A stretch of DNA of 38,999 bases from Halomonas sp. (lineage in GTDB: Bacteria; Pseudomonadota; Gammaproteobacteria; Pseudomonadales; Halomonadaceae), in NCBI RefSeq assembly GCF_030457605.1, contig NZ_JAKDUR010000019.1, forward strand, positions 1 to 38,999, read 5' to 3'. The notes below the pieces were generated by a model. The model made no database searches. It was given only the letters and a program-made list of their open reading frames with translations, and was not told the DNA's origin. Below, piece after piece: positions 147 to 18,119 of the stretch. A program made the translations under genes and the position numbers. Position 1 is the first letter of the stretch; every line of letters starts with the position of its first letter.

Positions 147-386
147 CTAAGCTGATGCTCTGGCCCAGCCCTGCAGCCGGCGGCCAAGGCGCATCAGGCC
201 GTAGACCACGCCCGGCATCACAAGCATCAGCGCAATGCCCCAGTCGCGGTTGTTGATCAGCCATACCAGCGGCAGCATGACCGCCACCGCCAGGCCAAAC
301 CAGCAGACCAGCGCTGCACACAGGCGCGGCTTGTTGAACGACTCGACCCACGAAGTATCCACGGCATGTTCTCCTTTCAGCGCCAT
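147..386 (-). CDS. small two-helix membrane protein at the end of the nor operon
   Basis: This 79-residue protein has two clear hydrophobic segments (about residues 22-45 and 48-66) and basic ends, so it should be an inner-membrane protein. Its ATG overlaps the TGA of norD by one base (TGATG), which indicates translational coupling and membership of the nor operon. Small membrane proteins such as NorF (about 77 residues in Paracoccus) occur in other nor operons and help NO reductase maturation or activity. The size and position match that role, but I do not see enough sequence signature to name it norF. The exact function is unknown. Confidence 0.7.
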   Translation of the reverse strand: MALKGEHAVDTSWVESFNKPRLCAALVCWFGLAVAVMLPLVWLINNRDWGIALMLVMPGVVYGLMRLGRRLQGWARASA

Positions 387-2332
387 CAGGTGGCAATAAT
401 CTGGCGGTAGATGCTCGGCAGCGCCAGCGACAGGTGCTCCGGCCGCTCGACAATGGCGTAGCCGCCGCGGCCGAACAGGCGCGGAATATACTGCCCCGCC
501 TGGCGGTCGATGGTCACGCCGAATACCCGCACCTCTTCCCGCCGGGCTTCAAGCACCGCCTTGCGGGTATCCTCGATGCCGTAGCGGCCTTCGTAGTAGT
601 CGTTGTCGTTGGGCTTGCCGTCGGTAATCATCAGCAGCAGCCGGTGGCGGTTGGGGCGCTTGGCAAGCTCTCCGGTCAGGTGGCGGATCGCCGGCCCCAT
701 GCGCGTATAGCTGCCGGGCTTGAGCGCCGAGATGCGCCGCGTGACCCGAGCGCTCATGGGCTCGTCGAACTCCTTGAGCGTATTGACGAACACCTTGTGG
801 CGGCGCTGGGAGGTAAAGCTGTGGATGGAATAGTCATCGCCGCAGCCGTCAAGTCCGTGGCCCAGCACCAGAAGCGCCTCCTTGGCCACGTCGAGCACCC
901 GCCGGTCATCGAGCCAGGCTTCGGTGGACAGCGACACGTCGACCAGAATCGACACCGCCAGATCCCGCGCCTGGGTGCGGGTATCGAGATACAGTCGGTC
1001 GCTTGATTCGCCGGTGGCGGCCAGATCGCAGCGCGCGCGGATGACGGCGTCCATGTCCAGCTCGCTGCCGTCCAGCTGGCCGCGCAGCGTTTCGCGCCGA
1101 GGCCTGAGCGCCTCGAACTCCCGGCGCACCCGGCGAATGCGCCGGCGGGTCAGCTCGTCGGGCGTCCAGTCTTCGCCCTCTTCGCTCTGCACGTCGCTGA
1201 TGACTCGGCAGTGTTCGGGCAGATACTGCTGCTTGCGATGGTTCCATTCGGGGTAAAGGTGCTCGCCCCTGAGCCGCCCGCCGCTGGCCTCGTCCGGTGC
1301 CAGGTCCAGGTCCAGCTTGAGCTTGGAGGCGGCCTTCTTGCGGTTGGCCGAGAGCACGATCTCCTCCATCTGATCCGCCGCCTGGCGGGCGTCTTCGTCC
1401 TCGTCGTCGACGTGGCGGTTGAGGTTGACCATCTCGGCCCAGGAGAGCATTTTTTCCGAGGCGTTGAGCATAAAGGAGTCGTCGCGGTCGGCCTGGTCCT
1501 GGTGCCGGCGGTCGGCCTGGCGCTTGCCCTTGTCGTCCTCTTCTTCATGCCGGGTCTTGAGCTCAGCACCGTCATCGTCGTCCTCGACGCTGTCTTCTTC
1601 GGCGTCGCGGGTGCCGATGGAGACGGCCTGCCCCCACAGCGGCACCGGCAGCGGCGGGCGATAGCCCTGGGGCGCACGAAATTCATCGAGAGCGGCGTGG
1701 GGGTCGCGGATGGCCTGCTGCAGCGCCAGCGCCAAACCGCTTTGGGGGTCGGGCGCGCCAAGCTCGGCGCACAGCGCGGCTTCAAACGCGGCTTCCACCG
1801 GCGGCAGCCGGCGGCGCGTCGGACGAATGCTCAAAAGCCCGGCGCACAGCGTCATGTAGCGGTTCTGCAGGCCAGGGAAGCGCTCAAGCGCTGCCTGCCA
1901 GGTGCGCCGGGCTTGGCGCAGCCGGCACACGTCGGCCTGCAGCGGGTCGGCCGGCAGCTCAACCGGGCGCACTTCGGCCAGGTAGGCGGTAAGCCACAGG
2001 TACAGGTCACGGTTGAGCGTGGCCTCGGGGAACAAAGCAATCCCTGGCGGCAGCAGCAGGTGGTCCTCATCGCGGCGGGCCTGATCCAGCTCTTCTTCGT
2101 CCAGCCCCAGCCGCTGGCGCAGGCTGAGCCGGTGGCGGGATGCGCGGCGCTTGATCGCCGCGACTTCAAGCCCTGCGTCGCCACCGGCGGCACGAAAAAA
2201 CACGCCAAGCAGGTGCTGCATGTCGTCCAGCAGCACCTCGGCGTCGGGGTATTCGGGGTAGCTCTCGGCCCGAGAGGCCCAGCGGTGCCAGTGGCGGCCG
2301 ACAAACTCCTCAACCTCAAGAAAATCCAGCAT
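386..2332 (-). CDS. norD: NorD, VWA-domain nitric oxide reductase activation protein
   Basis: A 648-residue protein with a C-terminal von Willebrand A domain (about 455-645). The MIDAS is visible as DVSLS near residue 465, followed by MITDGKPND near 570. The middle (about 240-290) is very acidic and low in complexity. NorD works with the MoxR-type ATPase NorQ to insert or activate the non-haem iron centre of NorB. I chose ATG 2332 rather than the in-frame ATG at 2353 because GGAGG lies 5 bases upstream of 2332 and nothing similar precedes 2353. The gene follows norQ after a short gap and is coupled to the small membrane gene downstream. Length and order (C-B-Q-D) are usual for cNOR operons. 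Confidence 0.93.
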   Translation of the reverse strand: MLDFLEVEEFVGRHWHRWASRAESYPEYPDAEVLLDDMQHLLGVFFRAAGGDAGLEVAAIKRRASRHRLSLRQRLGLDEEELDQARRDEDHLLLPPGIALFPEATLNRDLYLWLTAYLAEVRPVELPADPLQADVCRLRQARRTWQAALERFPGLQNRYMTLCAGLLSIRPTRRRLPPVEAAFEAALCAELGAPDPQSGLALALQQAIRDPHAALDEFRAPQGYRPPLPVPLWGQAVSIGTRDAEEDSVEDDDDGAELKTRHEEEDDKGKRQADRRHQDQADRDDSFMLNASEKMLSWAEMVNLNRHVDDEDEDARQAADQMEEIVLSANRKKAASKLKLDLDLAPDEASGGRLRGEHLYPEWNHRKQQYLPEHCRVISDVQSEEGEDWTPDELTRRRIRRVRREFEALRPRRETLRGQLDGSELDMDAVIRARCDLAATGESSDRLYLDTRTQARDLAVSILVDVSLSTEAWLDDRRVLDVAKEALLVLGHGLDGCGDDYSIHSFTSQRRHKVFVNTLKEFDEPMSARVTRRISALKPGSYTRMGPAIRHLTGELAKRPNRHRLLLMITDGKPNDNDYYEGRYGIEDTRKAVLEARREEVRVFGVTIDRQAGQYIPRLFGRGGYAIVERPEHLSLALPSIYRQIIAT

Positions 2333-2389
2333 GGCGGCCTCCATCAGGTTCATGCAAAACGCGAACGGGTCACGGGTGTATCAGCGGCA

Positions 2390-3214
2390 TCAGCCAAACG
2401 TCGCGCGCACGGCTTCCATCAGTCCTTCCTGCACGTCGGCGTCATCGGACAGCGGTTCGACGATGGTCGCGCGGGCGGCGTCAAGAATCGGCATGCCGGC
2501 CTGAATCAGCGTCGCGCAGTAGATCAGCAGGCGGGTAGAGATGCCCTCTTCCAGGTCCTGGCCCTTCATCGCTCGCAGGCTGGCGGCGAGGTTGACCAGT
2601 GCGGCGCAGCGCTCCGCGGGCAGGCCGCTCTCTTTGGCGACAATGTCGCGCTCCACCGCCGGCGGCGGAAAGTCGAACGACATCGCCACAAAGCGCTGGC
2701 GAGTGCTGGGCTTGAGGGTTTTAAGAATGTGTTGATAGCCGGGGTTGTAGGACACCACCAGCATGAAGTCGTCCGGCGCTTCGATCAGCTCGCCGGTGCG
2801 CTCAAGGGGCAGCACGCGACGGTCGTCGGTCAGCGGGTGAAGCACCACGGTGACATCCTTGCGCGCCTCGACCACTTCGTCCAGATAGCAGATGCCGCCC
2901 TCGCGCACAGCCCGGGTCAGCGGGCCGTCGACCCAGCGGGTTTCGCCGCCCTGCAACAGGTAGCGTCCGGTGAGGTCGGCGGCGGTCAGATCGTCGTGGC
3001 AGGCCACGGTGTGCAAAGGCTTGCCGAGCTTTGCCGCCATGTGGCTGACAAAGCGCGTCTTGCCGCAGCCGGTAGGGCCCTTGAGCAGCAGCGGCAGGCG
3101 CTGGGCGTAGGCCTGTTCGAACATTTCGCACTCGCTGCCCACGCTCTGGTAGTAGGGCAGGCGGGTATCGGCTGCGACAGAAGATTCAGCGGCAAAATCG
3201 GTTACTTGGGACAT
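2390..3214 (-). CDS. norQ: NorQ, MoxR-type AAA+ ATPase for NO reductase maturation
   Basis: A 274-residue AAA+ protein. Walker A is GPTGCGKT (about residues 43-50) and Walker B is ICYLDE (about 105-110); the fold continues through SYNPGYQ and a helical C-terminal lid. With NorD it forms the ATPase/VWA pair that activates the iron site of the NO reductase. The start at 3214 (MSQVTDF) is preceded by GGGAG 7 bases upstream; the frame could extend to an ATG at 3244 but has no ribosome site there. It sits between norB and norD on the same strand, with a strong hairpin in the norB-norQ gap that may set its level below that of the structural subunits. Confidence 0.94.
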   Translation of the reverse strand: MSQVTDFAAESSVAADTRLPYYQSVGSECEMFEQAYAQRLPLLLKGPTGCGKTRFVSHMAAKLGKPLHTVACHDDLTAADLTGRYLLQGGETRWVDGPLTRAVREGGICYLDEVVEARKDVTVVLHPLTDDRRVLPLERTGELIEAPDDFMLVVSYNPGYQHILKTLKPSTRQRFVAMSFDFPPPAVERDIVAKESGLPAERCAALVNLAASLRAMKGQDLEEGISTRLLIYCATLIQAGMPILDAARATIVEPLSDDADVQEGLMEAVRATFG

Positions 3215-3250
3215 GAAAGTCTCCCGGCAGAACAAAAGAAGCAACAGGAG

Positions 3251-3280: not shown

Positions 3281-4636
3281 TCAGGCGTTGTCGGTACCGG
3301 CGGTCATCTGGGTACCGCCCGCAGGAACTTCTACCCGTTTCGGGCCGAAGAAGGCGTAGAGCAGAAGCCCCGCGCCGATGGCCACGGCAATCCCCGCGCC
3401 CAGGCGCATGGCGTAGAACAGCCCCAGCTGGTCCTGGACTTCCATGTAGTTCATGCCCAGTACTCGCTGCAGGTGAGTCTGCACCACGCCGGCGAAGGTC
3501 AGGGTAAAGGTCATGAAGCACATCGCGCCGGTCATGATCCAGAAGCCCCACATGTTCATCACCTGGTTGTACGGCTGGCTGCGGCGCAGCGACGGCATGG
3601 CGAAGGTCATCACGCCAAGGATGATCATCACGTAAGCGCCGTAGAACGCCAGGTGGCCGTGGGCCGCGGTGACCTGAGTGCCGTGGCTGTAGTAGTTGAC
3701 CCAGTGCAGGGTGTGCATGAAGCCCCACACCCCGGCGCCGAAGAAGGCAACGGTCGGGCAGCCCAGCGTCCACAGCATGGCGGCCTTGTTGGGGTGGTTG
3801 CGGCGGCCTTTCCAGAACATGGTGAAGGCGAACATGACCATGGTGAAGAACGGTGCCACTTCAAGGGTGGAGAAGATACTGCCGATGGGCTGCCAGTAGC
3901 TCGGCGCACCGATCCAGTAGTAGTGGTGGCCGGTACCCAAAAGGCCGGAGAACAGCGCCAACCCCACGATAACGTACATCCACTTCTCGACCACTTCGCG
4001 GTCCACGCCGGTCATCTTGATCACCAGGTAGCCCAGCAGGGCCGCCATGATCAGCTCCCACACGCCTTCTACCCACAGGTGAACCACCCACCACCAGTAA
4101 AGCTTGTCGACGGCGAGGTTGGTGGGGTTGTAGAAGGCGAACAGCCAGAATACCGCTGCCAGCCACAGGCCCAGCATCAGCACCATGTTGATCGCTGTCC
4201 TGCGCCCCTTGGCAAGCGTCGCACTGGTGTTGAACAGGAACAGCAGGAAGGAAATGGTGATCAGTACCTTGATCCAGAACGGCTGCTCGAGGAACTCACG
4301 GCCTTCGTGGATGCCGAACTGATAGCCGACCAGCGCCGCCGCCCCGGCGAAGGCGAAGATGCCCAGCTGGATGTAGGCAAGCCCGGGGCTTGCGATTTCC
4401 TGCTCGGCTTCTTCGGGCATCAGGTAGTAGGTGCAGCCCATAAAGCCGATCAAAAGCCACACGATCAGCAGGTTGGTGTGGCTCACCCGCATGATGTTGA
4501 ACGGCATGAAACTGGCCATGAACTCCGGCCAGGCGTAAACCGTGGCCGCCAGCAGGCCGAACACGATCTGCAGCGCGAAAAGCGCCATGGCAACCATGAA
4601 GAACGGTAGCGCCACCCTTTGTGTTTCGTATTTCAT
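3281..4636 (-). CDS. norB: nitric oxide reductase subunit B (NorB, cNOR large subunit)
   Basis: A 451-residue, twelve-helix inner-membrane protein of the haem-copper oxidase superfamily that reduces 2 NO to N2O using electrons from NorC. The canonical cNOR elements are present: HLWVEGVWE (about residues 185-193, haem/FeB histidine plus the conserved glutamates), HHYYWIG (about 234) and AAHGHLAFYG (about 327) carrying haem b and b3 ligands. The length fits the short cytochrome c-dependent cNOR, not the longer quinol-dependent qNOR, and a norC gene is present. ATG 4636 has AAGGAG upstream. It follows norC by 18 bases. Confidence 0.97.
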   Translation of the reverse strand: MKYETQRVALPFFMVAMALFALQIVFGLLAATVYAWPEFMASFMPFNIMRVSHTNLLIVWLLIGFMGCTYYLMPEEAEQEIASPGLAYIQLGIFAFAGAAALVGYQFGIHEGREFLEQPFWIKVLITISFLLFLFNTSATLAKGRRTAINMVLMLGLWLAAVFWLFAFYNPTNLAVDKLYWWWVVHLWVEGVWELIMAALLGYLVIKMTGVDREVVEKWMYVIVGLALFSGLLGTGHHYYWIGAPSYWQPIGSIFSTLEVAPFFTMVMFAFTMFWKGRRNHPNKAAMLWTLGCPTVAFFGAGVWGFMHTLHWVNYYSHGTQVTAAHGHLAFYGAYVMIILGVMTFAMPSLRRSQPYNQVMNMWGFWIMTGAMCFMTFTLTFAGVVQTHLQRVLGMNYMEVQDQLGLFYAMRLGAGIAVAIGAGLLLYAFFGPKRVEVPAGGTQMTAGTDNA

Positions 4637-4654: not shown

Positions 4655-5107
4655 TTAACCGGCGGGATGCGGGGGCCAGTCCTGCGCATCGATGCCATCG
4701 GTCCATTCGAGGAAATCAATCAGCGACTGCATTTCCTCTTCGCTGAAATCGTAGGCCGGCATCTGCCGGCGGCCGGGCACCTCAAGCGGCTGGGCGCGGA
4801 TCCAGGCAGCAAGGCCGGTACGCGCCGCTTCGGGGCTTTGGTGCCCGCCGTAGCGCTCCCAGACGTTTGACAGCTCCGGGGCAAAGTACGCGCCCTCGCC
4901 CAGCAGGCTGTGACAGTTGATGCACATGTTTTTTTCCCACACTTCCTTGCCGTGCTTGACCGACTCGGTCAAACCCTCGCTGTCAGTGGAAACGTTCACC
5001 ATGTACCAGTGGCTGTGCACGGTCAGCGCCGTGAACAGCAGAAAGAAGAACAGCGACCCGCCGTAGAAGATATTGCGGGCCGCCGATCTGGTGAGTCCTT
5101 CGGCCAT
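4655..5107 (-). CDS. norC: nitric oxide reductase subunit C (NorC, membrane-anchored cytochrome c)
   Basis: A 150-residue monohaem cytochrome c. An N-terminal membrane anchor (about residues 13-34) is followed by the CINCH haem motif at 62-66; RRQMPAYDF near residue 120 supplies the likely axial methionine. It passes electrons from periplasmic carriers to NorB. It is the first gene of the norCBQD operon, with a purine-rich AGGGGG ribosome site about 8 bases before ATG 5107. The promoter upstream carries a perfect FNR/DNR box. All expected family features are present. Confidence 0.97.
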   Translation of the reverse strand: MAEGLTRSAARNIFYGGSLFFFLLFTALTVHSHWYMVNVSTDSEGLTESVKHGKEVWEKNMCINCHSLLGEGAYFAPELSNVWERYGGHQSPEAARTGLAAWIRAQPLEVPGRRQMPAYDFSEEEMQSLIDFLEWTDGIDAQDWPPHPAG

Positions 5108-5255: not shown

Positions 5256-6410
5256 TCAGCGACGCACGTAAAGCGAAACGCGGTCGTAGCCGCCGGCCGG
5301 ATAGCGCGCGCGCACCGCCGGATCTGCCTCGATCAGACGAATGTCGCGAGTGGCGTCGAGCAGTGCCCGCATGAAGTGGACAAGCTCCATGCGCGCCAGT
5401 GGCGCACCGGGGCAGACATGCACGCCGGCACCGTAGAGCAGGTTCAGCGACGGATCCCGATCCAGGCGTACCTTGTCCGGCTCGAGGAAGACGTCCGGGT
5501 CACGGTTGGCCGCGCCCCACAGAATCGTCAGCCGCTCGCCCTGCTCGATGCGCCGGCCGCCCACGTCTACCGGGCAGGTGGCCACGCGGCGGTTGGACAT
5601 CAGCGGCGCGTCCAGGCGCAGGATCTCGTCAATCACGTCAGACGTTATCGCCGGCTCGTCGCGCAGACGCTGCTGCCACTCGGGGTGAGCGGCAATGAAG
5701 CGCATCAGAATGCCGATGCTCGCGGAAATGGTGCCAAGCTCGCCCACCGTCCAGTTGCGCATCAGGCTGACCAGCTCTTCGTCGGTCAGCGGACGGCCGT
5801 CGACGGTCTCGTTCATCAGCCGAGTGGTGACGTCATCCGGCGGCGTGTCCATTTGCCGACGCACGTCCAGCCGCTCGCGGATCACACCGTCAAACTCAAG
5901 CGCAAGCCGACCCAGCGCCTCGCGGTCACCGGCAAGGGTGGCCGCCTGCTGGCGCTTGACCCAGTCGCGCAGCGGCTCGTGCAGGCTATTGGGCCAGCCC
6001 ATGAAGGCGCACTGAATCTCCAGCGCAAAATCCTGACCCATGGCCGCCATGGCTTCGACTTCGCCGTCGTCGGGCAGGCGGTCGACCACGCCCTCGGCGA
6101 TGGCGCGGCAGCGTGGAGCAAACTCGGCCATGGCGGCCTCGTTGAAGTAGGGCTCGATAATCCGGCGAAAGCCGGTGTGCTGCGGCGGGTCCATGGCGTT
6201 GGGCACCGACAGATGCCGGCTGGCGGCGTTGCTGAAGGTGGCGTGGTCCTGGAGCACGCGCATGACGTCGGCGTGGCGCAGAAGCGACCACTGCAGATAG
6301 TCGCTGAACGCGACCGGGCAGTGGCTGCGCATGTCATCGTAGGCATGGATCTGGTCGGACTGCACGGCATCGCTGCGCGGATCCCAGTCACTGTCGCGGG
6401 GAGTACTCAT
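5256..6410 (-). CDS. cytochrome P450, linked to the nor operon
   Basis: A 384-residue soluble P450. The EILR (ExxR) K-helix motif and the haem loop YGAGVHVCPGAPLAR with Cys333 as thiolate ligand are clear. The I-helix reads VGELGTIS (222-229). Aligned on Thr227, the residue before it, usually Asp/Glu in mono-oxygenases, is Gly226, and the usual second Gly is Glu224. No redox partner gene is adjacent. The start at 6410 has AGGAGG 4 bases upstream; a longer frame to 6440 has none. It sits directly upstream of the norC promoter, same strand, behind its own FNR/DNR-like box. That suggests a role in NO or anaerobic metabolism, but the substrate is unknown. Fungal P450nor also lacks the acid residue, which makes NO chemistry a testable idea, not a call. 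Confidence 0.92.
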   Translation of the reverse strand: MSTPRDSDWDPRSDAVQSDQIHAYDDMRSHCPVAFSDYLQWSLLRHADVMRVLQDHATFSNAASRHLSVPNAMDPPQHTGFRRIIEPYFNEAAMAEFAPRCRAIAEGVVDRLPDDGEVEAMAAMGQDFALEIQCAFMGWPNSLHEPLRDWVKRQQAATLAGDREALGRLALEFDGVIRERLDVRRQMDTPPDDVTTRLMNETVDGRPLTDEELVSLMRNWTVGELGTISASIGILMRFIAAHPEWQQRLRDEPAITSDVIDEILRLDAPLMSNRRVATCPVDVGGRRIEQGERLTILWGAANRDPDVFLEPDKVRLDRDPSLNLLYGAGVHVCPGAPLARMELVHFMRALLDATRDIRLIEADPAVRARYPAGGYDRVSLYVRR

Positions 6411-6476
6411 CCTGCCTCCTGAGAAAAGGGGGAATAACACGTCTCTCAGGGAACCATGCCCGGGCGGTATCGCGCA

Positions 6477-6490
6477 TTGATACAGGTCAA
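6477..6490 (-). promoter_or_regulatory. FNR/DNR-like box upstream of the P450 gene
   Basis: The plus strand reads TTGAT-ACAG-GTCAA, one mismatch from TTGAT-N4-ATCAA. It lies just after the marR stop codon and 67 bases before the P450 start, so its only sensible target is the P450 gene. No strong -10 is visible at the class II distance; a weak AT-rich patch (6432-6438) lies further downstream. Confidence 0.65.
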
Positions 6491-6514
6491 GCGATAAGCA
6501 GGCTCAATATTTTC

Positions 6515-6943
6515 CTACGGGGATGAGGCATCCATTCCGGCCACGCAGAAGGTCTCGCGAAACCGGCACAGTTCGGGCTGGTGGCGGGCCGCAATGGAGC
6601 GGGCCAGCCTGGCTCCGCGCGGCAGCAGGTGAACCTCGCTGCGGCGGCGGTCTTCTCGCCCCCGGGCGCGCTTGACCAGCCCCGACTGCTCGCAGCGGTC
6701 CACCAGCATGACCGTGCCGTGATGCTTGGCCTGCAGCCGCTCGGCAAGCTCGCCGACCGTGGCCCATTGGGCGTCATCGGCCAGCAGGTGTAGCAGCAGT
6801 TGATACTGCAGCGGCGTGACGCCGTATTCACGGCAAACATCTTCACTGTGGCGCAAAAAACAGCGCAGCTGATAGCGAAAGGCCGACAGCTGTTGGATAT
6901 CCGCCGAGGAAAATGTGGGGTCATGCTGAGTATCGTCCGCCAT
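6515..6943 (-). CDS. MarR-family transcriptional regulator
   Basis: A 142-residue winged-helix regulator. The helix-turn-helix covers about residues 40-85 (VTPLQYQLLLHLL ... ELAERLQAKHHGTV) and the wing is GREDRRRSEVHLL. It has five cysteines, two in the first helix region (Cys28, Cys37), a pattern sometimes seen in redox-sensing MarR/OhrR proteins; that sensing role is an inference. I chose ATG 6943 because AAGG lies upstream at good spacing; the longer start at 6982 falls inside a tandem repeat and has no ribosome site. It is divergent from the yip1-CZB pair across a large palindrome, so it probably represses itself and them. Confidence 0.88.
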   Translation of the reverse strand: MADDTQHDPTFSSADIQQLSAFRYQLRCFLRHSEDVCREYGVTPLQYQLLLHLLADDAQWATVGELAERLQAKHHGTVMLVDRCEQSGLVKRARGREDRRRSEVHLLPRGARLARSIAARHQPELCRFRETFCVAGMDASSP

Positions 6944-6969
6944 TATCGCCTTTGGGCCGTCGCCTTTGT

Positions 6970-7011
6970 TTTGTACTGTCATCTTTGTGCTGCCATCTTT
7001 GTACTACCATC
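6970..7011. repeat. three tandem 14-bp repeats upstream of marR
   Basis: Units TTTGTACTGTCATC, TTTGTGCTGCCATC and TTTGTACTACCATC are joined head to tail (6970-6983, 6984-6997, 6998-7011), each differing from the others at two or three positions. They lie in the 5' leader of marR. They could be a regulator array or a slipped-strand expansion; no protein is known to bind them. Confidence 0.85.
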
Positions 7012-7162: not shown

Positions 7163-7729
7163 ATGAATCCAACGACAGTGATCAAACTCCCCTTCACGCG
7201 CGGGGCGGGCTGGAAAGAGCTGCAGCGCCGCCGCCCCTCCATTGCCAAACTGGCGTTCGGTCTGGTGCTGCCCATGTCGCTGTTGCCGCCGGTGCTGTTG
7301 TACTACGCCGGCACCCACTACGGCGACGCCTTTGCTCCGGGCTTTGGCGATCGCGAATGGCGCTTCATTACCACCATCCTGTTCTTGTCCGAGCTACTGA
7401 CATTTTTCGTCATGGGCTGGCTGATCCACACCGTGGCCAACATTGCCGATGAACTCTCCATCGACTATCAGGATGCCTACCTGCTGGCGGCTCTTGCTCC
7501 GCTGCCGTTGTGGTCGTCGTCCATCGTGCTGCTGGTTCCCAGCCTGTTACTCAACGTGCTGGCCGTGCTGGTGGCACTGGGCATCTCGTGCAGCCTGGTG
7601 TATCAGGGGCTCGGTGCCCTTTGCGCGCGCCACGGGCAGGACATCACCACCATGTCAGCGACCTACACCATCATGGCCGCCGGCGTCATGGCCTGGGGTC
7701 TTTTGATGGCGATTGTCTGGGCTTACTGA
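7163..7729 (+). CDS. Yip1-family inner-membrane protein
   Basis: A 188-residue integral membrane protein with about five hydrophobic segments after a basic N-terminus. The pattern GWKELQRRRPSIAKL, then LVLPMSLLPPVLLY, resembles bacterial Yip1-domain (PF04893) proteins, whose function is poorly known. The ATG at 7163 has AAGGAG 7 bases upstream; the frame is open further upstream but the first codons there lie across the marR promoter. It is followed after 9 bases by the CZB chemoreceptor, so the two probably form an operon under the palindrome. No catalytic motif is visible. Confidence 0.75.
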   Translation: MNPTTVIKLPFTRGAGWKELQRRRPSIAKLAFGLVLPMSLLPPVLLYYAGTHYGDAFAPGFGDREWRFITTILFLSELLTFFVMGWLIHTVANIADELSIDYQDAYLLAALAPLPLWSSSIVLLVPSLLLNVLAVLVALGISCSLVYQGLGALCARHGQDITTMSATYTIMAAGVMAWGLLMAIVWAY

Positions 7730-7738
7730 GGAGTCACC

Positions 7739-8860
7739 ATGTTGTTACGCAAACGCCAACGTCCCCCAACGCCCGCGCAGGCAGTGGATGACCCCCAGAC
7801 CCTGTGTCTGGAGCGCGATCGCCTGCAGGCACGGGTAGCCGAGCTGGAGTCGGAGCAGCGCGTGCACCAGCACCTGTTCACCAACCTGACCGGCTTCGGC
7901 GACTCGGTTATCGCCCTGCGCGAGTCCTTTACCGATCTGTCTTCGCTGCTGCTGGACAGCCACCAAACCAGCGCGTTTACCACCGAAGAATCCCAGCGCA
8001 GCCAGCAGGCCTTGAACGCCATGCTGGAAGAGCTCAAAGCGCTCAACCAGCGCATCAGCCATGCGGCAGAAGAAGTTACGGTGCTGCACCAGGACGCCGA
8101 GCACATCGACAGTTTTGTGCAGGCGATCGACAAAATCTCGCTGCAATCGACTCTGCTGGCCTTTAACGCCAGTATCGAGGCCGCCCGTGCCGGTGAAGCC
8201 GGCCGCGGCTTTGCCGTGGTAGCCACCGAAGTGCGCCAGCTGGCCACTCGCACCCACGGTGCCACCGGCGAAATCGGCGAGCTTAACCGCAGCATTTTGC
8301 AGCAGGCAGAAAGCGTCGACGGCACCATGCTGGACAACGCCCAAAAGGCCGACCACCTGAGCACCGAAGCCGGCCAGGTCATGCAGCGCACCGAGCAGCT
8401 GCTCACCTTGACCCGGGAGAGCAGCAAAACGCTGTCGTTTTCTGCCATGTTGAGCGAGGTGGAGCTGGCCAATCTGGAGGAGCTTGAGATCAAGCTGGAC
8501 GTCTACCGAATTTTCATGGGGCTCTCGGACAAAAGCGCCTCCGACATCCCCGACGAAACCCAGTGCGCACTGGGTCAGTGGTACTACCAGGGTACCGGCA
8601 ACCAGCAGTTCTACAACGACCAGGATTTCCAGGCGCTGGAAGCGCCCCACCGCGAGGTGCACCAGCAGGCCATCGCCGCAGTGGATTATCGCCAGGCCGG
8701 CGACACCGTGGCCGCCATGGCAGCGCTTTCGCGCATGGAAGCGGCTAACCTGAACGTCATGGAACGGCTGCGCTATATCATGCGCAAATACCGCCCGGCG
8801 GCGTCAACGTCGCTGCCGACAGAAGCCGATTCCCAGCCGACGACGTTGGCGCTCGCCTAG
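7739..8860 (+). CDS. soluble methyl-accepting chemotaxis-type receptor with C-terminal CZB domain
   Basis: A 373-residue cytoplasmic protein without membrane helices. An N-terminal coiled coil (about 20-60) leads into an MCP signalling hairpin (about 120-175) containing the conserved [20 protein letters not shown] tip that contacts CheA/CheW. A C-terminal zinc-binding CZB domain follows, with CALGQWYY near residue 275 and HREVHQQ further on, giving the Cys/His ligands. CZB receptors are known to respond to zinc and to oxidants such as HOCl. No sensor domain precedes the hairpin, so CZB is the likely input. It lies 9 bases after yip1 with GAGGAG as ribosome site. Its TAG shares the CTAG at 8857-8860 with the nnrS stop on the other strand. 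Confidence 0.9.
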
Positions 8861-10026
8861 CGCCCCACTCTGGCGGCGGCGATCCAGTGCACCAGCCGCC
8901 AGGCCACTAACAGCCAGGCCGCACTCCAGCACAGCGCCGCGCTCCACAGCGCGGCCTGCCCGCCGCCAAAGGCCACCGCCAGCCGCAATACGGCAGCGGC
9001 GGCAAACAGCAGCGCCAGCGGCACAAACGCCGGCTCGTCTTCCGGGCGGGCCTTCGCTCGGCTTGCCGCCTGGCGCAGCATTACCGCGCTTGACAGCGTG
9101 CCCAGCGCGCCCACGGTAATCGCGTGCAGCGCGGTGCTCACCGGCAGCACGCCCATCACCGCTGCGCCATAAAGCCAAAGCCCCGCCGCCAGCCAGGCGT
9201 AGCCCGCCATGGGGGCCAAAAGATCGGCGCGCCGGCGGCACTGCCACGGCTCGAACCCCCACAGCCGATACGCCACCAACACCCCGGCCACAAGCGCCAG
9301 CAGCGCGGCAACGGTGCGCCCCAACGGCAGCCAAAGGACGAGCGGCAGCGCGCCCAGCAGCACAATCAGCGCCGCCTCAAGCCGCGGCTGCACACCGGCA
9401 CCGCTTTTGTTGCGATGGCGCTTGAAGTAGCCGTTGACCGCCGGCGCAATCAGCCGCCCGCCCATGAACGTCATCAACAGCGCCAGCCAGAAAACGCCCT
9501 GTTCCAGTAGCGCAAACGCCGGCCAGCCGCCTTGATGGCGCGCCCCCAGGCTCGCCACGGCCACCAGGCAAATCATCCCGATCAGCGGCCCCAGCACCTT
9601 GTTGCGCCACTTTTTCGCGGCAAAAAAGCGCGGGATCACCAGCCACGCCACCAGTGCGGCGAACGCCGCGTCGGCCACGCTTGAGGCGAACAGCCAAACG
9701 CCGCTGACAAGCGCCAGCCGCCCGGCCAGCCACAGCGTCACCAGTATCGCCATTCGCTCCCGGCTCAGCGGCCCCAGTAGGTAGCCGGCCACCACCGCCA
9801 GCGCAAAACCGAACAAAAGCTCCCGAGCGTGCCCGGCGGGCGTTGCCAACAGCCCCGACAGCGGCAGCCAGCCAAACATCGCCAATAGCGACAGCGGCAA
9901 CACCAGCGCGGCGTGCAGCGCGGCCAGCGGGAAAAACATCTGCCACGCCTGGGGGCGGCCGCGCCCGGCGGATGCGTCAGCGTGGCGCTCGGCCCACTGT
10001 CGATAAGCGGTGAAAAAATTGAACAT
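8857..10026 (-). CDS. nnrS: NnrS family haem-copper membrane protein
   Basis: A 389-residue protein with about twelve hydrophobic helices. NnrS signatures include [19 protein letters not shown] near residue 66 and [15 protein letters not shown] near 300, where histidines bind haem and copper. NnrS proteins are induced with denitrification genes and protect cells against NO-derived damage, including loss of iron from central enzymes. It converges on the CZB receptor gene and diverges from modA. I found no FNR/DNR box in the short gap to modA, so its regulation is not clear from sequence. Confidence 0.93.
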
Positions 10027-12949: not shown

Positions 12950-14215
12950 ATGACTCGTCACCCACTCGTTGCTACTATCTCACTTGCCGCGCTCATGCCG
13001 CTGGCCGCTCAGGCCGCCACCGCCGAGGCTGACGCGGTCATCTCGCACTACGCCGACATCGCCCACGCCACCTATCAGGACGCGCAGACCACCGCCGAGA
13101 CGCTCAACGAACGGATCGACGCGCTGCTGGAAAACCCCACCGCCGAGACCCTGGCCGCGGCCAAAAAGGCCTGGCTTGCCGCCCGCGTGCCCTACCAGCA
13201 GTCCGAAGTGTTCCGCTTCGGCAACGCCGTGGTGGACGACTGGGAAGGCCAGCTCAACGCCTGGCCGCTGGATGAAGGCATGATCGACTACGTCGAGACT
13301 GACGACTACCAGCACGAGCTTGGCAGCGAAGGTGCCACCGCCAACATCGTCGCCAATCAAACCATCAGCGTGGGCGGCAAGGACGTTGACGTCAGCGACA
13401 TCACCCCCGAGGTACTTGCCGACCTCAACGAAATCGGCGGCTCCGAGGCCAACGTTGCCACCGGCTACCACGCCATCGAGTTTCTGCTCTGGGGCCAGGA
13501 CCTGCACGGCTTCGAGGCCGGCAACGGCAACCGCCCGGCAAGCGACTACGCCACCGGCGACAACTGCACCCACGGCAACTGCGACCGCCGGGGCGAGTAC
13601 CTCGACGCCGTCTCCGACCTGCTGGTATCCGACCTTGAGTGGATGACCGAGCAGTGGACCGAAGGCGAGGATGACAACTACCGCGCCGAGCTGCTGGCCG
13701 AAAACGACGAGGAAGGCCTGCGCCGCATCCTCTTCGGCATGGGCTCGCTGTCTCTTGGTGAGCTTGCCGGCGAACGCCTGAAAGTCGCCCTGGAAGCCAA
13801 CTCTTTCGAGGACGAGCACGACTGCTTCAGCGACAACACCCACAACTCGCACTACTACAACGGCCAGGGCATCCAGAACGTCTACACCGGTACCTACGAG
13901 CGGGTGGACGGCAGCGTCGTCTCCGGCCCGGCGGTTGCCGACCTGGTCGAGCAGCAAAACCCCGAGCTTGCCACCGCGCTGCGCGGCCAGCTGGAAACCA
14001 GCATGGACAAGCTTGGCGTGATCAAGCAGACCGCCGAGGCCGAGCAGTCGCCCATGGCGTTCGACATGATGATTGCCCCGGGCAACGAGCAAGGCAGCGC
14101 CATGATCAACGACGCGATTCTCGCGCTGGTGGCGCAAACCGCCTCCATCGAGAAAGCCGCCGGCGAGCTGGGCGTGACCTCGCTGCAGCCCGACACCGCC
14201 GGACACAGCTTCTAA
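12950..14215 (+). CDS. imelysin-family periplasmic iron-uptake protein (peptidase M75-like)
   Basis: A 421-residue exported protein. A signal peptide ends near AAQAA (residue 23), followed by two imelysin helical repeats. The GxHxxE motif is GYHAIE with His174 and Glu177. A cysteine-containing insert (DNCTHGNCDRRG) follows. Members (ICMP, IrpA, EfeO-like) are periplasmic or surface iron-binding proteins. It is the first gene of a block with a DUF1111 protein, a second imelysin and a DUF1513 protein, behind a Fur-like box. The ATG has AAGGAAA upstream. A hairpin with a short U tract follows it, so this first gene may be made in excess of the rest. Confidence 0.9.
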   Translation: MTRHPLVATISLAALMPLAAQAATAEADAVISHYADIAHATYQDAQTTAETLNERIDALLENPTAETLAAAKKAWLAARVPYQQSEVFRFGNAVVDDWEGQLNAWPLDEGMIDYVETDDYQHELGSEGATANIVANQTISVGGKDVDVSDITPEVLADLNEIGGSEANVATGYHAIEFLLWGQDLHGFEAGNGNRPASDYATGDNCTHGNCDRRGEYLDAVSDLLVSDLEWMTEQWTEGEDDNYRAELLAENDEEGLRRILFGMGSLSLGELAGERLKVALEANSFEDEHDCFSDNTHNSHYYNGQGIQNVYTGTYERVDGSVVSGPAVADLVEQQNPELATALRGQLETSMDKLGVIKQTAEAEQSPMAFDMMIAPGNEQGSAMINDAILALVAQTASIEKAAGELGVTSLQPDTAGHSF

Positions 14216-14244
14216 ACATCCGCCGCCAAGGCTGAATGAGGCTC

Positions 14245-14279
14245 AACCGCCCTGTGGCCCTGCCGCAAGGGCGGTTTTT
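14245..14279 (+). terminator. stem-loop with U-run between imelysin and DUF1111 genes
   Basis: Arms AACCGCCCT (14245-14253) and AGGGCGGTT (14268-14276) pair around a 14-base loop and are followed by TTT. It resembles an intrinsic terminator or attenuator inside the operon. Confidence 0.65.
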
Positions 14280-14313
14280 GCCGTTATGGCACACATCCTC
14301 TGCGAGACCGCCC

Positions 14314-15726
14314 ATGACACCGCACTCTTTGACTCTGCTCGCCAGCCTGACGCTCGCTGTCTTCCCAGTCGCCGCCGATGCCGACAAGGCCCACGGCTAC
14401 CCGATTCAGGATACCCGGCTGACCGGCGGCGCGGGCTCCGTTGAGCAGTTTGACCACAACGCCTATTCGCTGCCGCTGGACAACCTGGCCATGACCAAAC
14501 GGCTGGACTTCAGCGTGGGCAACAGCTTTTTTCGCAACCCCTGGGTAGTGGCCCCGGCAAGCACCGCCGCCCGGGACGGGCTGGGGCCGCTGTTCAACAC
14601 CAACAGCTGCCAGGGCTGCCACCTGAAAGATGGCCGCGGCCACCCGCCCAAGGGCGACGAGACGCCCATTGCGCTGTTTTTGCGTCTCTCGCTGCCCGCC
14701 GCCCAGGGCGATGACGAGACCCTCGAGCAGCTGGGCGTGGTGCCGGTGCCCGGCTACGGCCGCCAACTGCAGACCGCCGCGATTCCCGGCGCCGAGCCTG
14801 AAGGTAAAATGGTCATCAAGCACGAAGCCCGCGAAGTCAGCCTTGCCGGCGGCGACACGGTCACGCTGACCGTGCCCCACTACCGCATCGAAGCCCCGGC
14901 CTACGGCGCGCTGCCCGAGGACCTGGAAACCTCGCCAAGGCTTGCCCCACCGATGATCGGGCTGGGCCTTCTGGCCGCGATCCCCGACGACGTCCTGCGC
15001 GCCGCTGCCGATCCTGACGACGCCGACGGCGACGACATTTCCGGCCGGCTCAACCACGTCTGGGACGAGCGCCGCCAGCAAACCGTGGTCGGCCGCTTCG
15101 GCTGGAAAGCCGGCGAGCCGACCGTCGAGCAGCAGGGCATGCACGCCTTCGCCGGCGACATGGGGCTCACCTCAAGCCTTGCGCCGGGTACCGACTGCAC
15201 CGCCGCGCAAAACTGCGATAAGTTCGAGCACGGCGGCGAGCCGGAAGTCAGCGACAAGATCGCGGGCTTCGTGACCTTTTACGCCGAAAGCCTGGCCGTG
15301 CCCATGCGCCGCGACATGGACGACGAAACCGTTGTGCAGGGCGCGCGGCAGTTCAACCGGCGGGGCTGTGCATCCTGCCACACGCCGCGCCAGCAAACCG
15401 CCGACGACGCCTCGCGCCCGGCGATTGCCGGCCAAACCATCTGGCCCTACAGCGATCTTCTGCTCCACGACATGGGCGAGGGCCTGGCCGACAACCGAGC
15501 CGAGTTCGAGGCTACCGGGCAGGAATGGCGCACCCCGCCGCTGTGGGGTATTGGCCTTGCGCAAACGGTTAACCCCCGCGCGCGCTTCTTGCACGATGGC
15601 CGCGCCAAAACCCTTGAAGAAGCGATTTTATGGCACGGCGGCGAGGCCGAAGCGGCGAAGGAGCGCTACCGCCAGCTGCCCAAAGACGAGCGCCAAAGCG
15701 TGCTGCGCTTTCTGGAATCCCTGTAA
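14314..15726 (+). CDS. di-haem c-type DUF1111 protein (CxxCH thiol oxidoreductase-like), iron-uptake operon
   Basis: A 470-residue exported protein with a signal peptide of about 23 residues. Two c-type haem sites are visible: CQGCH at 99-103 and CASCH at 352-356. The overall sequence matches the DUF1111/COG3488 di-haem oxidoreductases related to MauG and bacterial cytochrome c peroxidases. In such operons it sits between two imelysins and is thought to act in periplasmic iron redox chemistry; the exact reaction is not known. ATG 14314 is the start that gives a signal peptide. The open frame extends upstream to 14236, across the hairpin, which is unlikely. Its TAA (15724-15726) is the left border of a structured repeat. 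Confidence 0.88.
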   Translation: MTPHSLTLLASLTLAVFPVAADADKAHGYPIQDTRLTGGAGSVEQFDHNAYSLPLDNLAMTKRLDFSVGNSFFRNPWVVAPASTAARDGLGPLFNTNSCQGCHLKDGRGHPPKGDETPIALFLRLSLPAAQGDDETLEQLGVVPVPGYGRQLQTAAIPGAEPEGKMVIKHEAREVSLAGGDTVTLTVPHYRIEAPAYGALPEDLETSPRLAPPMIGLGLLAAIPDDVLRAAADPDDADGDDISGRLNHVWDERRQQTVVGRFGWKAGEPTVEQQGMHAFAGDMGLTSSLAPGTDCTAAQNCDKFEHGGEPEVSDKIAGFVTFYAESLAVPMRRDMDDETVVQGARQFNRRGCASCHTPRQQTADDASRPAIAGQTIWPYSDLLLHDMGEGLADNRAEFEATGQEWRTPPLWGIGLAQTVNPRARFLHDGRAKTLEEAILWHGGEAEAAKERYRQLPKDERQSVLRFLESL

Positions 15727-15730
15727 CTCT

Positions 15731-15895
15731 CAAAGCCATTGCAGTTGGAGACAACTCATCGAACCGGTAACAGGTCAAAGAGAGGGTTCTACGCCATGGA
15801 TGGCGTAGGTAGCGTCCAAGGACGGATTCATAGCGCCCTCTCGGCGGCCTGTTACCGGTTCCATTAACGTCATTGAACCAACTGCGATAGCCCTG
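15731..15895. repeat. nested inverted-repeat element (MITE/REP-like) inside the iron operon
   Basis: Three pairs of arms are nested: CAAAGCCATTGCAGTTGG (15731-15748) with CCAACTGCGATAGCCCTG (15878-15895), 14 of 18 paired; GAACCGGTAACAGG (15761-15774) with CCTGTTACCGGTTC (15848-15861), perfect; and GAGAGGG (15780-15786) with CCCTCTC (15836-15842), perfect. Inside are a perfect 9-bp hairpin CTACGCCAT-GG-ATGGCGTAG (15789-15808) and CGTCC-AA-GGACG (15813-15824). The element is flanked by near-copies CCCTGTAACTCT (15719-15730) and CCCTGTTTTAACTCT (15891-15905), which look like a target duplication. It has no coding capacity. Confidence 0.85.
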
Positions 15896-15928
15896 TTTTA
15901 ACTCTTCCTGTTTTATCAAGGAACCTGC

Positions 15929-17005
15929 ATGGCTCACACACGCTCTTTATACCGCGCCGGCATGATCACCACCGCGCTGCTGATGACCGCCGGCACGGCC
16001 ACCGCCGCCGACCAGCCCACCCCGCGCCAGCAGTGGCACCAGGCGGCCGCCCAGCAGTACTCGGCCCTGGCTGACGCCGCCGAGACGCTTGAGCAAAGCG
16101 CCGCCGACTACTGCGCCAACGCCAAAAATCAGCCCAGCGACGACGCCCGCGCCACCCTTGAACACGACTGGCTTGCCGCCTACCAACGCTGGCAGGCGGT
16201 GCGCTACGTTCAGTTCGGCCCCGTTGAGCAGCAAAGCCGGGGCTGGCAGCTGCAGTTCTGGCCTGACAGCAAAAACCTGGTAGGCCGCAAGGTGGGCTTG
16301 GCGCTCAAGGCCGATACGCCGGCCACCCTTGACGACGTCGAGCAGGCCGGCGTGGCGCTGCAGGGCTTCCCCGCGCTTGAGTACCTGCTCTACGACGACG
16401 CCATGGACGACGCCTCGCTGGCCAACCCCGGTGCCTGCGCGCTGGCGCAAAACATCAGCACCCATATCCGCCAGACAACCCAGGCGCTTGAAGACGACTG
16501 GCAGGCCTTTGGCGAGCACTTTGAAAGCACCGACGGCTACACCCATACGCTGTTGCAAAGCGCGGTGCAAAGCGTCGAGCAGCTGGAAGAAAAGCGCCTG
16601 GCAGCACCGCTGGGGCTTGCCGGCACGCCGGCAAACAGCTACCGCGCCGAGGCCTGGCGCAGCGGTGAAAGCGTGGCTCTGATGCGGGCAAGCCTTGAGG
16701 GCCTGCGGGAAGGCGTGATGCCGGGCCTGACGGCGCTGCTGCACAGCCGCGGCCACCCAGCGCTTGTGGATAAGCTGGAAGCACAGCTGGACGAGGTGAT
16801 CGCCCGAGCGAACACGCTGCCCGACGGCATGGTCCGCGCGATAGAAGCCCCGACCATTGAAGGCGAAGGCCCCGAGCAAAAGGCCGCCTTCGCCGACCTG
16901 CAGGGCTTTTACGTGCAGGTAAGCCAGCTGCGCCGACTGCTGGCAAGCGACGTGGCCGCCGCCACCGGCCTGCGCCGGGGTTTCAACTCAAGCGACGGGG
17001 ACTGA
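15929..17005 (+). CDS. second imelysin-family protein, variant motif
   Basis: A 358-residue exported protein with a signal peptide ending near TATAA (residue 27). It follows the imelysin pattern, with WQAVRYVQFGPVEQ and a second helical half. The GxHxxE site of the first imelysin is replaced by GFPALE (about residues 146-151): proline stands where the metal-linked histidine would be. This matches the second subgroup (COG3489-like) found in these operons, so the change is a subfamily trait and not decay. One base separates its stop from the DUF1513 gene. The upstream repeat element lies between it and the DUF1111 gene. Confidence 0.85.
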   Translation: MAHTRSLYRAGMITTALLMTAGTATAADQPTPRQQWHQAAAQQYSALADAAETLEQSAADYCANAKNQPSDDARATLEHDWLAAYQRWQAVRYVQFGPVEQQSRGWQLQFWPDSKNLVGRKVGLALKADTPATLDDVEQAGVALQGFPALEYLLYDDAMDDASLANPGACALAQNISTHIRQTTQALEDDWQAFGEHFESTDGYTHTLLQSAVQSVEQLEEKRLAAPLGLAGTPANSYRAEAWRSGESVALMRASLEGLREGVMPGLTALLHSRGHPALVDKLEAQLDEVIARANTLPDGMVRAIEAPTIEGEGPEQKAAFADLQGFYVQVSQLRRLLASDVAAATGLRRGFNSSDGD

Positions 17006-17006
17006 T

Positions 17007-18119
17007 ATGGCCGTCAACCAGACTCGCCGCCGCCTGCTCGCCGCCGGGGCCGGGGCGCTGGCCCTGCCCGCCCTGACCACGGTGCCCTCGATCGCCTGGG
17101 CGCTGCCAGGCCGCGAGCACGCCGACTGGCTGTTCAGCGCGGTCAACGACGCCGACGGCCGCCACTGCATTGCCGGGATTACCCCGGGCGGCGAGCGCCA
17201 CTTTACCCTCGCCATCCCCGAGCGCTGCCACGGCGGCTGCCTATCTCCGGCCAAGCCCCAAGCAGTGGTATTTGCCCGCCGGCCGGGCTGGCGCTTCTAC
17301 GTGGTAGACGGTGAGGCGCAAGAAGTGAGCCACCAGATCGACGCCGGCGACGGCTACCACTTCTATGGCCACGGCGTGTTCGAGCCCGCCGGGCGCTACC
17401 TGTACGTCACCGCCAACCGATTGCATGACGCCATGGGGCTGGTGCGGGTCTACGACGCCGAGAGCGACTACCGCCACGTTCGAGATATTGCGCTTGACGG
17501 CATCGGCCCCCACGAGATCCGCCTGCTGCCCGACGGCGAAACGCTGGCGGTGGGGCTTGGCGGCATCAAGACCCACCCGGACTACGGCCGGGTCAAGCTC
17601 AACCTCAAGGATATGGACCCCGCCCTTTTGCTGGTCAACCGCGAAAGCGGTGAGATTACCGCGCGCCACCGGCCGTCCCACCATCAGCTCAGCTGTCGGC
17701 ACCTGGACGTGGCCGCCGACGGCACGGTGATCGCCGGCTACCAGTTTCAGGGGCCGGAGTGGGAAGCCCACCCGCTGCTCTGCCGGCTGGGGCCGGACAG
17801 CGCGTTCTCGGAGCTTGCGCTGAATGACGCGCTGACCGCCAGCCTGCAGCAGTACACCGCAAGCGTCGCCATAAGCCGCAGCCGGCCGCTGGTGCTGGTT
17901 ACCGCACCGCGCGGGCACAAGGTGCTGCTGCTTGACCACCAGAGCGGCGCACTTGTGGCCGAGTATGCGCTGCCCGACGCCGCCGGGGCGCGCTGCGACG
18001 GTACCGGCGGCTTTGTGGTCTCCTCCGGGCGCGGCGGGCTATACCGCATTACCCCGGGCGAGCCCGAGGCGGTCGCGCTTGCCGACCTGCCGCTCAAATG
18101 GGACAACCACCTGACCTGA
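17007..18119 (+). CDS. DUF1513 Tat-exported beta-propeller-type protein
   Basis: A 370-residue protein with a twin-arginine signal (TRRRLLAAGAGALALPAL, residues 5-22), so it should be exported folded through Tat. The body has repeated short strands such as GRYLYVTAN, GLVRVYDAES and HEIRLLPDGETL, typical of a seven-bladed propeller, and matches DUF1513 by context and motifs. It is the last gene of the iron operon, one base after the imelysin stop. Function is unknown; exported propellers next to imelysins are assumed to help metal or haem handling in the periplasm. Confidence 0.85.
   Translation: MAVNQTRRRLLAAGAGALALPALTTVPSIAWALPGREHADWLFSAVNDADGRHCIAGITPGGERHFTLAIPERCHGGCLSPAKPQAVVFARRPGWRFYVVDGEAQEVSHQIDAGDGYHFYGHGVFEPAGRYLYVTANRLHDAMGLVRVYDAESDYRHVRDIALDGIGPHEIRLLPDGETLAVGLGGIKTHPDYGRVKLNLKDMDPALLLVNRESGEITARHRPSHHQLSCRHLDVAADGTVIAGYQFQGPEWEAHPLLCRLGPDSAFSELALNDALTASLQQYTASVAISRSRPLVLVTAPRGHKVLLLDHQSGALVAEYALPDAAGARCDGTGGFVVSSGRGGLYRITPGEPEAVALADLPLKWDNHLT

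Follow-up and report, generated by a model that had tools for sequence, protein, structure and literature searches.

Whether a cytochrome P450 encoded beside genes for a respiratory NO reductase acts on NO or on molecular oxygen is the question raised by a stretch of 38,999 nucleotides of Halomonas sp. (contig NZ_JAKDUR010000019.1 of assembly GCF_030457605.1; hereafter, the window). NO handling decides the amount of N2O released by denitrifiers, and a P450 family that accompanies NO reductases across Gamma-, Beta- and Alphaproteobacteria would add a new player to this step. As judged from the sequences compared here, the P450 of the window is indeed a member of a coherent family of denitrifier P450s, not a lone gene, and, instead of being an ordinary oxygenase, it may act on NO or deal with what NO leaves behind. 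Such a family would make bacterial P450-based NO chemistry a directly testable question.

As originally predicted, the gene lies directly upstream of norC on the same strand, with norCBQD downstream, as found by a Pfam scan of the window open reading frames (ORFs; table 1). The interval first delimited for the feature (5256-6490) holds for the gene taken together with its upstream box; the gene proper is shorter (6410..5256 on its own strand, stop codon included, with the ATG at 6408-6410) and encodes 384 residues. The product scores 69.4 bits with the Pfam P450 model (PF00067, cut-off 22.8), its AF2 model has the P450 fold (mean pLDDT 89.6), with a weak stretch and no helix at residues approximately 60-80, and the residues that define the superfamily (E262, R265 and C333) are invariant in 38 aligned sequences. 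Tyr326 of the heme-binding loop occupies what we take to be the place of Phe in the usual motif. No match to PHROGs was obtained when a viral origin was checked, and this P450 is the only one found in its own genome (a 2.46-Mb assembly, 79.6% complete). In 55 other genomes of Halomonadaceae, the norB gene of the window has a counterpart at 79-92% identity, and in one more at 47%. The NnrS family protein is presumably NO-related. Elsewhere in the window, positions 12950-18119 (plus strand) encode two imelysin-domain proteins around a di-heme peroxidase-like protein, followed by a DUF1513 protein, a stretch that we assume to be an iron-uptake-like island.

Table 1. Features of the window discussed in the text (positions of the whole stretch; P450 residue numbers refer to the window protein).
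Feature	Position	Strand	Remarks
norD	386..2353	-	VWA (Pfam)
norQ	2390..3244	-	CbbQ/NirQ/NorQ C-terminal (Pfam)
norB	3281..4636	-	COX1 family (Pfam)
norC	4655..5107	-	cytochrome c domain (Pfam)
Perfect FNR/DNR palindrome TTGATAAGGATCAA	5220..5233	.	between P450 and norC, upstream of norC
Cytochrome P450 gene	5256..6410	-	encodes 384 aa; belongs to the family of denitrifier P450s
Heme-binding loop LLYGAGVHVCPGA	5403..5441	-	residues 324-336, with Cys333, invariant in 38 aligned sequences
ExxR, E262-R265	5616..5627	-	invariant in 38 aligned sequences
I-helix motif RNWTVGELGT	5730..5759	-	residues 218-227; Gly226 where the acid usually stands, Glu224 three residues ahead of Thr227
FNR/DNR-type box of P450, TTGACCTGTATCAA on the P450 strand	6477..6490	-	67-80 nt before the ATG
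MarR-family regulator	6515..6982	-	next gene upstream of P450 (Pfam)
NnrS family membrane protein	8857..10026	-	Pfam

The search for relatives scored 7999 candidates, and the 120 best of 3883 align with the window protein along almost the whole length at 98 to 59% identity. With one genome scanned per species, 132 loci were confirmed, and the best 80 were kept: 77 hold the same kind of P450 and three (L078-L080) hold unrelated P450s at 24-26% identity. These three and L092 were left out as generic P450s, and G484 (208 bits) was dropped from the 17 positives of an order-level sample, in which family members score at least 386 bits and the next match 208; the best solved P450 (PDB) reaches 201 bits with the family profile. 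The family occurs in Halomonas, Vreelandella, Billgrantia, Marinobacter, Halopseudomonas, Pseudomonas and Stutzerimonas, and also in Thauera, Pseudogulbenkiania, Microvirga, Rhodoblastus, Acidovorax and others; a collection of plasmids extends it to Paraburkholderia, Caballeronia, Ensifer, Shinella and Ciceribacter (51-54% identity) and to distant members from Deinococcus (37-38%). When 51 family sequences and four control P450s were placed in a midpoint-rooted tree, the former made up one side of a fully supported branch. The copy found on an Ensifer canadensis plasmid (L151:8001-9133) is in two pieces, the frame being broken before the heme loop, and has an NnrS-like gene near it.

The I-helix (RNWTVGELGTIS, residues 218-229) was placed by a MAFFT alignment with 30 other P450s and by a profile alignment to P450nor. 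Both align Thr227 with the conserved Thr and bear out the prediction that Gly226 stands at the position of the acid usually found beside it. The accompanying idea of a lost acid survives only in part: the canonical acid at position 251 is absent from every full-length family member compared, but it is not simply gone. In 90 distinct sequences (out of 99 full-length ones, two partial sequences having been left out), Gly, Ala or Ser, and never an acid, stands at position 251. Glu at 249 goes with Thr at 252 in 84 of the sequences, and Asp at 249 with Ser at 252 in the other six. The acid-alcohol pair of Class I monooxygenases at 251/252 is, therefore, found in none of the 90, the acid being at 249. 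In 30 control P450s (the best Pfam scorers of the order, with a bias towards a few types of P450), the residue at 251 is Asp in 20, His in seven and Glu in three, and that at 249 is Ala in 19, Gly in 10 and Cys in one. On these alignments, the acid of the family is shifted by two residues, from 251 to 249, rather than lost. The six Asp-Ser members form one group with 100/100 support in the tree and may thus reflect a single event; two Deinococcus proteins provide two further Asp-Ser pairs. A P450 encoded on a cyanobacterial plasmid (L147:7995-9143, 43% identical) has a related RNW I-helix with an AGHGT motif and no acid at 249, which suggests a sister family; with Gly before Thr and the 249 acid absent, the loss at 251 would possibly be older than the gain at 249.

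The moved acid, with its paired Glu-Thr or Asp-Ser residues, is also a natural case in which to study how protons reach heme-bound O2 or NO in P450s. The kept Thr or Ser at 252 and the nearby acid count against the NO reading in so far as they would fit O2 chemistry too. The P450 might be an O2-dependent monooxygenase used where oxic conditions give way to anoxic ones, whose substrate would be a specific metabolite of the denitrifying cell, for example in the repair of nitrosated or nitrated compounds or in a quinone- or lipid-related step, with the 249 acid delivering protons. The invariable presence of an acid at 249 and of Thr or Ser at 252 in the 90 sequences suggests that a proton relay has been retained, the matches listed show ordinary bacterial P450s as the nearest in sequence and fold, and aerobic denitrification is reported in Halomonas (PMC8014003). 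Although we regard this alternative, taken singly, as rather unlikely, it is nearly as good as the NO reading; the facts that weigh against it are the tight tie to NO reductase genes, the FNR/DNR boxes and the scarcity of candidate redox partners, which are set out in what follows.

The tie to NO reductases is seen in 201 Halomonadaceae genomes, 31 of which encode the P450 and 57 cNorB. All 31 P450-positive genomes encode an NO reductase, namely cNorB in 29 and qNor in two (G019 and G122), and the association between P450 and cNorB is strong (Fisher p 6e-17, with genomes treated as independent; shared ancestry is corrected for neither in this test nor in the tree). Among 293 genomes sampled across the order, a cNorB or qNor-type domain is present in 15 of the 16 family-positive ones, as compared with 62 of the 293 overall; two of the positives (G000 and G020) are shared with the Halomonadaceae sample. 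Neither NO reductase was found in G429 (88% complete), which encodes two family P450s. For more distant loci, 49 genomes were inspected, taken from the best 80 loci after omission of those of Halomonas, Vreelandella and Billgrantia, of L041 (same genome as L024) and of L078-L080. A NorB match was found in 38 (including G207, where it is weak, at 33% identity) and qNor in eight of the other 11, i.e. 46 of 49, a set which was picked for holding the P450, has no base rate of its own and has a few genomes in common with the order sample. In G223, G224 and G244, reached via loci of metagenome-assembled genomes, the P450 is present and neither NO reductase was found. In the genomes sampled, the P450 is, therefore, nearly always accompanied by an NO reductase. 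The converse fails, in that 28 of the 57 cNorB-encoding Halomonadaceae genomes lack the P450, so that NO reduction in general can do without it, a point that tells against the NO reading.

A role in heme d1 biosynthesis was also considered, cd1 genes being adjacent to the P450 in many Halomonas, and was rejected because six of the 31 P450-positive Halomonadaceae genomes (one of the six being the incomplete genome of the window itself) lack the D1-heme family. With a D1-heme protein in only 25 of the 31, including one (G129) with a single weak match, the link to NO reductase is the stronger of the two. When the six genomes and G129 were searched for the copper nitrite reductase, only G019 passed the cut-off, so that neither the D1 nor the Cu type of nitrite reductase was found in G000, G122, G138, G191, G198 and perhaps G129.

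The gene neighbourhoods of the relatives, named by Pfam for representatives and by tblastn for the others, include nor, nir, nar, nnrS, hmp, ric and ubiTUV genes. Within flanks of at most about 8 kb, 43 of 92 distinct loci (window included) contain at least one of nor, nir, nnrS, hmp and ric, and 20 contain a UbiT/U/V-like or NrdD/G-like gene; either set of markers is found in 50 loci and none of the markers in 42. The arrangement varies: the P450 precedes norCBQD in the window and in two Vreelandella loci (L001 and L002), lies between hmp and the nir cluster in many Halomonas, is followed by a CRP/FNR-type gene in four Microvirga loci and, in Paraburkholderia and Caballeronia, comes on the same strand after narGHJI, a peptidylprolyl isomerase gene, a nitrate/nitrite transporter gene and one small gene. 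No NO context is visible in the flanks of the Deinococcus loci (37-38%) and of the cyanobacterial relative (43%); these loci and the 42 without markers count against the NO reading. Two other genes recur in the same surroundings, one for a hexameric tyrosine-coordinated heme protein (HTHP, PF11534; L005, L018, L029, L054 and others) and one for a Yip1-domain membrane protein, which in the window lies at 7163-7729 (plus strand) and in relatives stands upstream of the P450, on the other strand (a cluster of 23 loci).

Two further explanations arise from these neighbours. The U32 and SCP2 proteins encoded beside the P450, which we take to be UbiU, UbiV and UbiT, would be in line with an O2-independent P450 (an isomerase, dehydratase or similar) carrying out an anaerobic biosynthetic step and co-regulated with ubiTUV and nrdDG, the more so as genes of these two sets adjoin the P450 in some of the 20 loci (L099, L100 and L101). 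Such a function seems improbable: no substrate gene is constant, and the adjacency is not specific, since the ubiTUV and nrdDG genes share anaerobic islands with those of denitrification. NO is also known to bind the P450 heme, and the MarR gene, whose cluster of homologues immediately precedes the P450 in 22 of the 77 loci of relatives that were clustered, could be taken to indicate an NO sensor or sink, in which the heme-thiolate binds NO without turnover and is perhaps coupled to the neighbouring regulator. We consider this quite improbable, given that the mean column identity of 67% and the many invariant residues in the 38 aligned sequences argue for catalysis, and that the MarR genes are mainly confined to Halomonadaceae loci and, hence, are not part of a family-wide pattern.

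The P450 gene had been predicted to carry a near-perfect FNR/DNR box of its own, and this is what is found, with one mismatch from TTGAT-N4-ATCAA (TTGATACAGGTCAA in forward-strand letters). In the 39-kb window, TTGATNNNNRTCAA has three matches at two places only (0.05 expected), a result that none of 100 shuffles equals, and TTGATNNNNATCAA, with one mismatch allowed, has two matches, which six of 100 shuffles reach; a lone one-mismatch box is, therefore, weak, and its weight rests on conservation in relatives. Among 62 representatives less than 88% identical (window included), a perfect TTGAYNNNNRTCAA lies within 250 bp upstream of the P450 in 11, as compared with 0.09 expected from dinucleotide shuffles, and a one-mismatch box in nine more (1.24 expected), so that a box of the FNR/DNR regulon type (TTGAY-N4-RTCAA) with at most one mismatch precedes 20 of the 62 genes (1.3 expected). 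The other 42, to which the Marinobacter and Microvirga genes tested conform, have at least two mismatches, mostly at chance level. Perfect boxes precede seven Halopseudomonas/Pseudomonas P450 genes, though no marker gene was found in their flanks. In the window, a scanner detected no sigma-70-like -10/-35 pair in 6380-6540, which is still compatible with an FNR-dependent promoter. Since boxes recur in relatives and nearly every P450-positive genome in the samples also encodes an NO reductase, the predicted expression under low oxygen or NO is likely.

As to the source of electrons, the original prediction that no redox partner is encoded nearby agrees with the Pfam scan, in which no ferredoxin, flavodoxin or ferredoxin reductase was found among 30 window ORFs. 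The genome of the window (79.6% complete) contains only two Fer2 frames at E<=1e-5, a cut-off that may miss small ferredoxins, one of them a 413-residue frame and the other reading, from its sequence, as a xanthine dehydrogenase small subunit; no others but these two were found at this threshold in G138, a close relative whose genome is 100% complete. In 28 loci, two of them from a genome already represented, a gene for an SdhB-like iron-sulphur protein occurs close to the P450, usually on its strand, with a gap of 112-139 bp in eight (L012, L033, L044, L054, L056, L071, L088 and L100). Its product could be an electron donor or, possibly, a spare subunit.

Of the explanations weighed, the one that we tentatively prefer is that the P450 is a cytoplasmic NO-linked heme-thiolate enzyme, with NO reduction as the likeliest reaction. 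An FNR/DNR-type activator would turn the gene on as oxygen falls and NO appears, and the cytoplasmic heme-thiolate would bind NO and turn it over, most likely to N2O, with electrons coming from a donor and protons via the relocated Glu224/Thr227 pair. The P450 would serve the cytoplasm as a safety valve, next to NorCB, which is bound to the membrane, and Hmp, which requires oxygen; its NO reductase role would be a second one, the respiratory Nor being present already, and this weighs against the proposal. The weakest step of this proposal is the reaction itself, and the evidence would also agree with a reaction of some other molecule derived from NO. A more specific version, which we hold to be more doubtful, sees in the family a bacterial P450 NO reductase or NO-transformer independent of CYP55 and accessory to respiratory NO reduction in many denitrifying genera, in which the acid, formerly at 251, lies over the heme at 249 and there is no B-C loop for binding NADH, hence the use of a protein electron donor.

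A cytochrome P450 was reportedly seen in Rhizobium japonicum grown anaerobically on nitrate, to go by the title of a 1972 paper. Among the papers listed in searches of open-licence literature, no description of a P450 family like the present one was seen; CYP112/114/117 are listed in a study of Bradyrhizobium under microoxia (PMC6515984), and a P450 is placed beside tusA in a Hyphomicrobium sox locus (PMC12423496).

By every test made, the family consists of P450s and, by the tests applied, it is neither CYP55 nor TxtE. The likeness to the fungal NO reductase P450nor (CYP55A1 of Fusarium oxysporum), which had been pointed out at the outset, is confined to a soluble P450 in an NO-related setting, to the missing 251 acid (Ala242-Thr243 in P450nor, Gly226-Thr227 in the window protein) and to the kept alcohol, all 90 sequences having no acid before Thr or Ser at 252. 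It does not extend to Gly240 of P450nor, in place of which the family has Glu, nor to the distal B-C loop, where Lys62 and Arg64 of P450nor bind NADH: this stretch has about 30 residues in the printed P450nor sequence and 15-16 in the 13 family members aligned, as compared with 21-26 in the controls. Membership in CYP55 was rejected on this loop and on sequence score, since P450nor, with 124.5 bits on the family profile, exceeds all 30 controls of the same order (18.7-60.6 bits) but is itself outscored by at least 60 PDB P450 sequences, from 149 bits (the 60th) to 201 (CYP125MRCA). The absence of P450nor among the 50 fold matches listed proves nothing by itself.

The sequences and folds that come closest among the matches listed are those of ordinary bacterial P450s (CYP125, EryK, CYP109 and P450eryF). 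The family differs from such class-B enzymes (CYP125, CYP113/EryK, CYP109 and CYP107) at 249 and 251, where they usually have Gly and, before Thr, Asp or Glu, respectively; to our knowledge, they have no tie to NO reductase genes. TxtE, the 4-nitrotryptophan synthase, is a distant relative that uses NO and belongs to a different gene setting. Its model (TIGR04458) is the second-best NCBIfam match of the window protein and might suggest a nitrating P450 using NO and O2, which is very improbable indeed, as the score of 95.6 bits is far below the cut-off of 500 and neither an NO synthase nor a biosynthetic cluster was seen in the window ORFs scanned; assignment to TxtE was, thus, rejected. A parallel for the displaced acid is provided by CYP4-type P450s, in which the I-helix acid also lies a few residues before the conserved Thr, as a Glu at position 248, one residue earlier than that of the family, and is esterified to the heme.
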